Positions 13,255 through 15,078 of a DNA stretch of 64,000 nucleotides are shown here, one piece after another; the stretch's first letter is position 1, and every line of letters begins with the position of its first letter. The stretch comes from Comamonas denitrificans (GTDB lineage: Bacteria > Pseudomonadota > Gammaproteobacteria > Burkholderiales > Burkholderiaceae_C). The DNA lies in the NCBI RefSeq assembly GCF_017368815.1, contig NZ_JAFNME010000005.1, forward strand, positions 1 to 64,000, read 5' to 3'. Made by a program: the position numbers and the translations under genes. The notes under the pieces were generated by a model. The model was not told where the DNA came from, did not search any database, and was given only the letters and a program-made list of their open reading frames with translations.

Positions 13255-13920
13255 TTAGCGCTGGCTTGTCGCCAAAATCCCCGCCGCCGCAATAAACGCC
13301 CCCCCTGTCGCCCGGTCAAACCATTGCCCGGCGCGCGTGCCATGCAAACGGGCCAGCAATTTGGCCCCCGCCAGCACATACATCAGCATGATGGAGCCAT
13401 CGAGCACCATCCAAGTACAGCCCAAAATTAGCAACTGCCCCGCCACGGGCGCACTGGCATCCATAAACTGCGGAAACAAGGCGCTGAAAAACAGCAAATC
13501 TTTCGGATTGCCCAGCCCCACCATCAAGCCTTTGCGAAACAGCGTCCAAAAGGTGGTGGTATCTGCCGACTCAGCACGCTCTGGCGCACCGGCATTGACA
13601 ACCTCAGTGTCCACCTCCACACCCGCCGGTGCCTGCTTGGCGTTGCGCCAAGTGCTGATGCCCAAGTAGAGCAAATACACCGCTCCGGCCCATTTAATCG
13701 CGCTAAACAGCGTATCGGAAGCGGCAATGATTGCCCCCAAGCCCAGGGCTGAGAGCAACATCAACGTCATGGAGGCGGTAATCCCGCCCAAAATGGTGCC
13801 GATGGTTTTACGTGCGCCATGCGCCAACGCATGCGAAACACACAACAAGGCCGATGGCCCTGGCGAAGCAATCAGCGCTGCCGCCAAAGAAACGTACAAC
13901 AACCACAAGCTCAACAACAT
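13255..13920 (-). CDS. LysE/RhtB-family amino-acid exporter
   Basis: Inner-membrane translocator of the LysE superfamily, 221 residues with about six hydrophobic segments and the N-terminal signature SPGPSALLCVSHALAHGARKT. Members export amino acids or related metabolites; the substrate cannot be told from sequence. The ATG at 13920 has no good ribosome binding site. The gene is convergent with the M3 peptidase and divergent from the micro-ORF region. Confidence 0.9.
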   Translation of the reverse strand: MLLSLWLLYVSLAAALIASPGPSALLCVSHALAHGARKTIGTILGGITASMTLMLLSALGLGAIIAASDTLFSAIKWAGAVYLLYLGISTWRNAKQAPAGVEVDTEVVNAGAPERAESADTTTFWTLFRKGLMVGLGNPKDLLFFSALFPQFMDASAPVAGQLLILGCTWMVLDGSIMLMYVLAGAKLLARLHGTRAGQWFDRATGGAFIAAAGILATSQR

Positions 13921-14006
13921 TTATAAAAATCCAAAAAAAATTTCACTGCCCAGTAAACCGAAGCGGCCGCCCTGGCGTTAAACCTTACATCTAAGGAGTG
14001 AACGCA

Positions 14007-14081
14007 ATGACTGCAACCCAACCGATCACCATCTGGCCCGAAGACGAACGCGATCGCAAACGCGGCCCCGCTCGCTTTTAA
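14007..14081 (+). CDS. Micro-ORF 1 with IWPEDERDRKR motif (24 aa)
   Basis: The ATG at 14007 is preceded by a good ribosome binding site (AAGGAG at 13993-13998) and encodes MTATQPIT, then IWPEDERDRKR, then GPARF and a TAA stop. A small hairpin (TAATGC/GCATTA, 14079-14097) overlaps the stop. The same 11-residue motif recurs 122 nt downstream in micro-ORF 2. I do not recognise the peptide. Expression is inferred from the ribosome binding site and the duplication only; a leader peptide, a small regulatory protein or a conserved RNA element are all possible. Confidence 0.5.
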   Translation: MTATQPITIWPEDERDRKRGPARF

Positions 14082-14140
14082 TGCTTTTAGCGCATTAAGC
14101 CCCTTTGGTTTTTGACCTCACCTTTTTTTGAGAGTCCATC

Positions 14141-14188
14141 ATGAACACCTGCATCTGGCCTGAAGACGAACGCGATCGCAAACGCTAA
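14141..14188 (+). CDS. Micro-ORF 2 with IWPEDERDRKR motif (15 aa)
   Basis: The ATG at 14141 follows a GAGAG ribosome-binding-like sequence and encodes MNTC, then IWPEDERDRKR and a TAA stop. The 33-nt motif DNA (14153-14185) matches that in micro-ORF 1 (14031-14063) except for one synonymous base (CCC versus CCT), while flanking DNA and N-terminal codons differ. The protein function is unknown. Confidence 0.5.
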   Translation: MNTCIWPEDERDRKR

Positions 14189-14271
14189 TCGCCCTAGCGT
14201 GCATTGGCTGTAGCGCCCATTGAGCAAACCGTCGATAGTAACGCCGTCCCCACCCTTGCTTTAGAACAAAC

Positions 14272-14304
14272 AAAAAACGCCTGCACTAGTTGCAGGCGTT
14301 TTGC
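14272..14304. terminator. Bidirectional terminator between micro-ORFs and phaB
   Basis: A perfect 10-bp stem AACGCCTGCA/TGCAGGCGTT (14276-14285, 14291-14300) with loop CTAGT has an A-run on the left and T-rich sequence on the right. It can terminate the micro-ORF transcript and the pha operon coming from the other side. Confidence 0.8.
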
Positions 14305-14323
14305 TTTTCAGCGCAGGGCGCTT

Positions 14324-14341
14324 AGAACGTGAACACGTTCT
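14324..14341. repeat. Palindrome AGAACGTG-AA-CACGTTCT at phaB 3' end
   Basis: Eight-base arms are perfectly complementary around a 2-nt centre, abutting the phaB stop codon. A near-identical palindrome follows trhP at 39042-39059. This could be a protein-binding site or an additional terminator. Confidence 0.55.
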
Positions 14342-15078
14342 TATTGCATGTGCTGACCGCCATTCACCGAGAACTCGGCGCCAGTGGCATAACCACCTTC
14401 GTTGGAGGCCAACCATGACACCATCGACGCGATTTCTTTGGGCTCACCCAAGCGCTTGACGGGAATGGTGGCGACAATTTTCTCCAGCACATCCTCGCGG
14501 ATGGCTCGCACCATGTCAGTGCCGACATAGCCGGGGCTGACCGTGTTCACCGTCACGCCTTTGCTGGCCAGCTCTTGCGCCAGGGCTTTAGAAAAGCCGT
14601 GCATCCCGGCCTTGGCCGCCGAGTAGTTGGTTTGCCCAGCTTGGCCTTTGGCACCGTTGATCGAGCTGATATTGATGATGCGGCCCCAGCCTTTTTCCAC
14701 CATGTCGGCCACCACTTGCTTGGTCACGTTGAACATGGAGTTGAGGTTGGTCTCAATCACTGAACGCCAATCTTCCGGCGTCATTTTGATGAACATGCGG
14801 TCGCGGGTAATGCCGGCGTTGTTCACCAGCACATCAATGCTGCCGTGCTCGGCTTTGGTTTTGCTGAAGGCTTCGACGGTCGATTCCCAATCGCCCACGT
14901 TCCCCACCGAGGCGTAAAAGGTATAGCCAAGCGCTTTTTGCTCGTCGAGCCACTTTGTGTAGTCACGGGTGGGGCCGCAGCCAGCAATGACTTTAAAACC
15001 ATCGTCGTGCAGACGTTGGCAAATTGCCGTTCCAATCCCGCCCATACCACCGGTGACGTAAGCTACTTTTTGACTCAT
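14341..15078 (-). CDS. phaB: Acetoacetyl-CoA reductase
   Basis: Short-chain dehydrogenase that reduces acetoacetyl-CoA to (R)-3-hydroxybutyryl-CoA with NADPH, the second step of polyhydroxybutyrate synthesis. The 245-residue protein has the TGGMGGIG cofactor motif (about 9-16), the catalytic Ser in INISSINGAKGQAGQ, and the NYSAAKAG Tyr/Lys pair. PhaB-type residues such as GCGPTRDY and the FSVNGGQHMQ C-terminus set it apart from FabG. It is the last gene of phaC-phaA-phaB, 86 bp after phaA. Confidence 0.96.
   Translation of the reverse strand: MSQKVAYVTGGMGGIGTAICQRLHDDGFKVIAGCGPTRDYTKWLDEQKALGYTFYASVGNVGDWESTVEAFSKTKAEHGSIDVLVNNAGITRDRMFIKMTPEDWRSVIETNLNSMFNVTKQVVADMVEKGWGRIINISSINGAKGQAGQTNYSAAKAGMHGFSKALAQELASKGVTVNTVSPGYVGTDMVRAIREDVLEKIVATIPVKRLGEPKEIASMVSWLASNEGGYATGAEFSVNGGQHMQ

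Follow-up and report, generated by a model that had tools for sequence, protein, structure and literature searches.

A sequence-only reading of the window (the whole 64,000-nucleotide stretch of DNA that was analysed) had singled out two tandem micro-ORFs with a common peptide motif in a 420-bp gap. This raised the question of whether they form a small peptide family, a pair of leader peptides, or an RNA or DNA element. The gap itself is as described, extending from the start of a LysE-type exporter gene (13920) to the stop codon of phaB (14341). The features recognised in it are the following:

13921..13943, + strand: A/T-rich, UP-element-like tract upstream of the -35 (sequence; A/T enrichment in the profile of 95 copies)
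13953..13958, + strand: -35-like element GTAAAC, GTCAAC in most relatives (sequence and copy profile)
13976..13979, + strand: -10-like element CGTT, 17 nt past the -35 (sequence and copy profile)
13993..13998, + strand: Shine-Dalgarno (SD) sequence AAGGAG of ORF1 (sequence)
14007..14081, + strand: micro-ORF 1 with its stop codon, MTATQPITIWPEDERDRKRGPARF (sequence; match with E 7.5e-14 to a profile that has the window peptide among its rows)
14141..14188, + strand: micro-ORF 2 with its stop codon, MNTCIWPEDERDRKR (sequence; own promoter not found)
14274..14302, no strand assigned: inverted repeat, putative terminator shared by the micro-ORF transcript (+) and the pha operon (-) (repeat search)

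The locus and the peptide family

ORF1 (14007-14078, then TAA) encodes 24 amino acids and ORF2 (14141-14185, then TAA) encodes 15, and the motif announced for them is present in both as WPEDERDRKR. Near-identity of the underlying DNA was likewise found: the direct repeat 14030-14063 / 14152-14185 is identical at 33 of 34 positions, the sole difference, CCC/CCT, being synonymous. The claim that each ORF has its own ribosome binding site stands for ORF1, whose AAGGAG is strong, and falls short for ORF2, which in the window genome is preceded by a weak GAGAG (14130-14134); four aligned members of the window clade have GGAG at this position. ORF2 is probably carried on the ORF1 transcript. Neither peptide contains a hydrophobic segment of membrane-spanning length.

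Around the pair lie an M3 peptidase gene (oligopeptidase A type) and the LysE-type gene, the latter on the - strand. The phaB (short-chain dehydrogenase), phaA (thiolase) and phaC genes are all on the - strand, convergent to the micro-ORFs. The inverted repeat at 14274-14302 stands between the micro-ORFs and phaB, and the hairpin is conserved in the window clade among the alignment parts listed. A terminator scan reported it for the - strand alone, with one site against a mean of 1.1 in shuffled sequences; for the micro-ORF transcript it is therefore a putative terminator. A sigma-70 scan of the locus region returned no promoter.

When a degenerate IWPEDERDRKR pattern was run with up to 3 mismatches over the 3.0 Mb genome, the two window copies were the only matches, and the reversed pattern gave none. 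With 2 mismatches, 34 of the 61 genomes used as relatives contained the motif, with 34 of 37 positive within the genus and 0 of 24 outside it; the three genus genomes without it are 85, 59 and 75% complete. Copies number one to three per genome in the genus and are accompanied by an SD, as the sequence-only reading had proposed to check. Exact matches in named records amount to 31 stretches, every one from Comamonas or Delftia.

At the level of the family, a search with the shorter pattern WPxD[DE]RDRKR was positive for 26 of 200 genomes, representing 17 of 141 genera. An order-wide scan of 399 genomes yielded 6 positives, all inside the family (0 of 387 others). A profile built from 30 peptides, some of whose rows derive from genomes searched with it, had matches at E ≤0.1 in 74 of the 349 genomes of the family, 55 of these at E <1e-3; matches near E 0.1 are probably due to chance. 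Twenty further stretches were fetched, of which 18 are listed, L187 and L189 having been dropped by a length filter and read separately. The promoter-like site described below is present in 16 of the 18, and the peptide profile made no use of that site. L183 and L185, which match the profile but lack the site, appear to be chance hits. L187 and L189 contain good micro-ORFs behind GTCATC in place of GTCAAC; both lie outside the set of 105 copies analysed below and belong, with L083, to three micro-ORFs of one genus that show this change. Divergent peptides were also recovered: NWPSDDRDRRRMPAR came from all 3 of the genomes fetched for one genus, and SWKKDDRDRRRSPARAC from a single genome of a different genus. 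The family core reads WPxD[DE]RDR[KR]R, in many cases with [A/S]PARL directly after it. Given the two sites in the window genome, the empty control and the recurrence through genus and family, chance is excluded as the source of the window motif.

The microprotein family appears to be new, as judged from the absence of a Pfam or NCBIfam model for the three peptides tried (E up to 10), queries of 24-39 residues having little power in such searches. One 24-residue query found no match at E up to 1 in collections of plasmid and phage records. The motif WPEDERDRKR was not found in a literature search with most subscription papers outside its scope, and a literature search found no ribosome-profiling study of small proteins in Comamonadaceae.

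A promoter-like site common to the micro-ORFs and other genes

The main feature of the family lies upstream of the ORFs and is absent from the sequence-only reading: the sequence GT[C/A]AAC-N16/17-CGTT precedes 99 of the 105 copies. The six without it are five second ORFs of the window clade, which sit close behind the first ORF, and L083, with GTCATC. The typical layout runs from an A/T-rich tract through tGTCAAC[C/G], 16-17 nt, gCGTTga and CA to the SD, with a median of 12 nt between the end of CGTT and the SD. The upstream profile covers 95 of the 105 copies (9 misses, and 1 too near the locus end); at least one of its segments is mis-anchored (second copy of L035) and probably two (odd distance of 57). 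The promoter alignment retains 57 of 58 non-redundant rows, the mis-anchored row having been removed by hand. AAC in the -35, CGT in the -10 and a fixed interval of 16-17 nt recur upstream of the start codon, a form and spacing characteristic of the ECF-sigma promoter class. The site is thus promoter-like and of ECF-sigma type by its sequence.

An upstream motif found before many copies, TTGCATTTTYTTGC, was considered as a PhaR-type operator and dropped; it is read as an A/T-rich upstream element. Allowing one mismatch, a single further form, TTGCACTTTTTTGC, was found in 10 of 10 genomes. Its flanks are conserved near base 1500 of L116, L117, L120, L124, L125, L131, L132 and L133; at five of these eight places, read by eye, it is flanked by mraZ/mraW and, at the opposite end, by hslU, and at a sixth mraW alone is recognisable. 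The TTGCACTTTTTTGC region has the appearance of a conserved promoter or operator.

For the strict site TGTCAAC-N17-CGTTG, 10 genomes gave 15 matches, 12 of them ahead of micro-ORFs, 2 ahead of an Asr-like gene and 1 elsewhere, against 4 for the reversed pattern. In the window genome, a looser site shows no enrichment (3 matches versus 7 in the reversed control). A blind search of this genome produced three sites: at the micro-ORFs, inside the sigma gene of an ECF-DUF3619 operon, and before a lipoprotein-like gene. The last gene, L098:997-1389 (-), encodes a putative lipoprotein rich in Ala, Lys and Glu behind GTAAAC-N17-CGTT; since the looser site is not enriched, its occurrence here may be fortuitous.

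In a promoter-profile search of 15 genomes, in which 150 candidates per genome were scored, 20 micro-ORF sites came out at E <1e-3, as expected because many of them had trained the profile. Of nine other sites that were read (E 0.0027 to 0.29), five precede genes whose products begin, by eye, like exported proteins. One of these proteins recurs. Basic, exported and Asr-like, it consists of a signal peptide and an A/P/K/H-rich stretch behind it, and was found in 20 of 30 genomes at E up to 0.01; examples are L099:1207-1437 (-) and L113:1589-1843 (+). Among the 16 best of 26 loci, and with N16/N17 spacing, the exact site stands before 15 of 16 orthologues, beginning 82-133 nt ahead of the start codon; one orthologue lacks it. 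Shuffled upstream regions of these genes reach the site once in 3200. One orthologue compared with the acid-shock protein Asr (NF033636) scored 17.8 bits (E 0.0043), below the cut-off of 50. Signal peptide and A/P/K/H-rich composition are what the co-occurring protein has in common with Asr; the micro-ORFs themselves show no resemblance. Two more genes with exported-looking products lie behind a micro-ORF-type site in one genome each: L208:1601-1987 (+), a helix-hairpin-helix protein, and L215:1607-1930 (+), a Pro/Val/Tyr-rich protein.

The site inside the sigma gene belongs, in the window genome, to an operon ECF-DUF3619-DUF3106, the sigma factor of which is a member of NF006550/PRK09047 (255.6 bits against a cut-off of 173). 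It is kept in the same codons in all four genera looked at, 127 nt ahead of the start of the next gene, which Pfam identified as DUF3619 in the window genome. Codons of the sigma gene do vary: of 97 invariant residues, 27 are encoded identically throughout. CGT, which encodes both Arg residues within the site in 4 of 4 genes, is found in 3 of 36 cases at the nine other invariant Arg columns. When codons were resampled synonymously, 0.27-1.15% of the simulations for each gene produced such a site at any position; because the four genes are related, these values are not independent of one another. The regions upstream of the sigma genes themselves yielded no site of the micro-ORF type. An arrangement of this kind occurs in Escherichia coli, where rseA P3 is a sigma-E promoter inside rpoE (PMC8595263); the two systems would have in common a promoter within an ECF sigma gene that drives the next gene.

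Six sigma factor matches were obtained in the window genome: RpoD, RpoH, FliA, RpoE, an ECF factor with a putative anti-sigma, and ECF-DUF3619. Genome G501, which has a micro-ORF, gave five: RpoD, RpoH, FliA, RpoE and ECF-DUF3619 (RpoD, RpoH, FliA and all G501 names were assigned by eye). The two sets therefore leave RpoE and ECF-DUF3619 as main candidates. The ECF factor associated with a cysteine-containing putative anti-sigma (L092) was set aside, having GGAAC-N16-CGTT upstream of its own gene and no counterpart in G501. That sigma gene, L092:1225-1779 (-) in the window genome, has the likely anti-sigma behind it, and GGAAC-N16-CGTT can be read by eye at two places, ahead of the sigma gene and, further downstream, ahead of another gene, which suggests a self-regulated operon.

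Between the two main candidates, we favour ECF-DUF3619 over RpoE by about two to one. A possible, if unlikely, alternative is that RpoE or another sigma factor reads the same peptide genes, the ECF-DUF3619 operon being merely another target: RpoE is present in both the window genome and G501, and several targets start like exported proteins. However, no such site was seen in four RpoE loci (L094, L264, L270 and L271, about 1.5 kb on each side), and the E. coli RpoE consensus, GGAACTT/TCTGA, differs from the site described here. As for the favoured ECF-DUF3619 factor, the position of DUF3619 in the operon hints at an anti-sigma. Neither DUF3619 nor PRK09047/NF006550 was found in a literature search with most subscription papers outside its scope.

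What the units encode

All 103 copies listed start with ATG, and all except window ORF2 (3/6) match the SD at 4/6 or better, in a scoring where the start codon was chosen so as to favour the SD. Among the 105 copies there are 59 distinct 30-nt DNA cores specifying 10 peptides. Mean pS and pN over the core are 0.569 and 0.069, respectively; leaving out the variable third codon, pN falls to 0.016 with pS at 0.544. The four codons before the W show about equal values (pN 0.594, pS 0.603). The low pN is in part a product of how the copies were collected, since the residue pattern used conditions on W, [DE]R, D and [RK]K; free of this conditioning are only P, D3 and the last R, together with the synonymous changes. 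Overall, the comparison of synonymous and nonsynonymous change, which the sequence-only reading had called for, indicates that the core is under purifying selection as a peptide. With a start codon, an SD, a frame that is kept and residues under such selection, the units have the attributes of microprotein genes. The suggestion of a peptide family is thereby upheld, and so is that of duplication of a functional unit, tandem copies being present in many genomes.

Codon choice was surveyed in 137 copies. At the three invariant core positions, just 2 of 411 Arg codons are other than CGC or CGT; Glu at the third position is encoded by GAA in 84 of 84 cases, and Ser two residues before the W by TCC or TCT in 56 of 65. 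All three choices depart from the local background. We read this bias as probably that of the favoured codons of a strongly expressed gene. The second Asp does not fit that picture, GAT being used 80 times and GAC 57 against a local background of 32% GAT. The uniform GAA and the preference for GAT could hint at an additional constraint at the nucleotide level.

We consider it rather improbable that the main product is a small regulatory RNA, with the micro-ORF secondary (a dual-function RNA). The unit is short, stands alone, ends in a hairpin and reaches three copies per genome, and several sigma-E targets in enteric bacteria are sRNAs. However, in three groups, among the alignment parts listed, little is conserved outside promoter, SD, ORF and hairpin, and this scarcity of conserved untranslated sequence lowers the likelihood of a regulatory RNA. 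Against it also stand the constancy of residues where synonymous sites vary, the unremarkable fold of the window transcript (z -1.31), and the outcome of a search of 13800-14400 with Rfam covariance models, whose best score, 21.5 bits at the hairpin, lies below the gathering score of 55.

A leader-peptide pair, as had also been proposed, would sense translation through attenuation or stalling on behalf of a neighbour such as a YheS-like ABC-F gene. The ORFs are short, with WP and charged runs, and ABC-F signatures occur upstream on the same strand at 40 of 65 loci; phaB-like signatures are found on the opposite strand at 47 of 65, and both together at 33 of 65, as counted from short sequence signatures in loci of unequal length. 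Profiles showed one ABC-F gene to be YheS-like. However, the ABC-F gene is upstream rather than downstream, and the + strand offers no following gene to regulate before the convergent pha genes. Neighbours differ elsewhere: in one setting the flanking genes are chaC and that of a phosphomethylpyrimidine kinase, and the unit still has its promoter, SD and ORF. Because these three elements stay together beside other neighbours, the micro-ORF unit appears self-contained, which makes a leader role unlikely; adding the promoter-like site at nearly every copy, we regard it as highly improbable. Amino-acid operon leaders (Thr_leader, the Trp leader) are similar in being tiny ORFs with an SD. In contrast to them, the micro-ORFs have no downstream structural gene, have their own promoter-like site, and encode a conserved peptide that is not rich in one regulatory amino acid.

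Least credible is a repeated DNA element or transcription-factor site open in frame by accident, as the near-identity of the window copies might suggest: the diversity of DNA cores for so few peptides, the presence of just two copies in the window genome and the retention of residues while synonymous sites change all speak against it, and for the coding part the RNA/DNA element of the sequence-only reading is unsupported because variation sits at synonymous sites.

A candidate ECF regulon of stress microproteins

The reading that we prefer, with a probability of about 0.6 on the strength of sequence comparison, is that the family consists of stress microgenes that code for peptides and belong to an as yet uncharacterised ECF regulon, the window locus being a short stand-alone unit for two microproteins. 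For transcription, translation, sigma factor, type of stress, abundance and mode of binding, we infer the following course of events. The ECF-type promoter (GTAAAC-N17-CGTT at this locus) would start an mRNA about 20 nt ahead of ORF1, from which both ORFs would be translated and which the hairpin at 14274-14302 would end. The likely sigma factor is the ECF member (NF006550/PRK09047) of the ECF-DUF3619-DUF3106 operon, an assignment that draws, as far as the intragenic site is concerned, on four genomes. The same factor would drive the Asr-like exported basic protein and also, from the promoter within its own coding sequence, the gene that follows. During some envelope or acid-type stress, large amounts of the peptides would be produced, as several copies, strong SD sequences and favoured codons suggest; soluble and highly charged, they may bind a partner via the conserved motif.

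More tentatively, NF006550-DUF3619-DUF3106 may constitute an undescribed ECF system whose strongest-matching targets are tandem microproteins of 15-40 residues, mostly with a promoter of their own, the bulk peptide being the effector. In a bolder form of this proposal, the W/R-rich peptide, which by eye resembles the segment DWFRRQKTR of the sigma factor, might act on the DUF3619 protein as a decoy. Compared with the sigma-E regulon of E. coli, the system is distinguished by its commonest targets found, peptides of 15-40 residues, by a likely sigma factor of the NF006550/PRK09047 type beside DUF3619, and by GTCAAC as the -35 in place of GGAAC.

Genes of 15 codons easily escape annotation; here, conservation, promoter and likely co-regulated genes are legible from sequence. 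In our judgement, the family ranks with the shortest protein families whose conservation is clear. For an uncharacterised ECF sigma factor with two neighbours annotated without function, DUF3619 and DUF3106, the micro-ORFs would provide a marker promoter and a list of targets.
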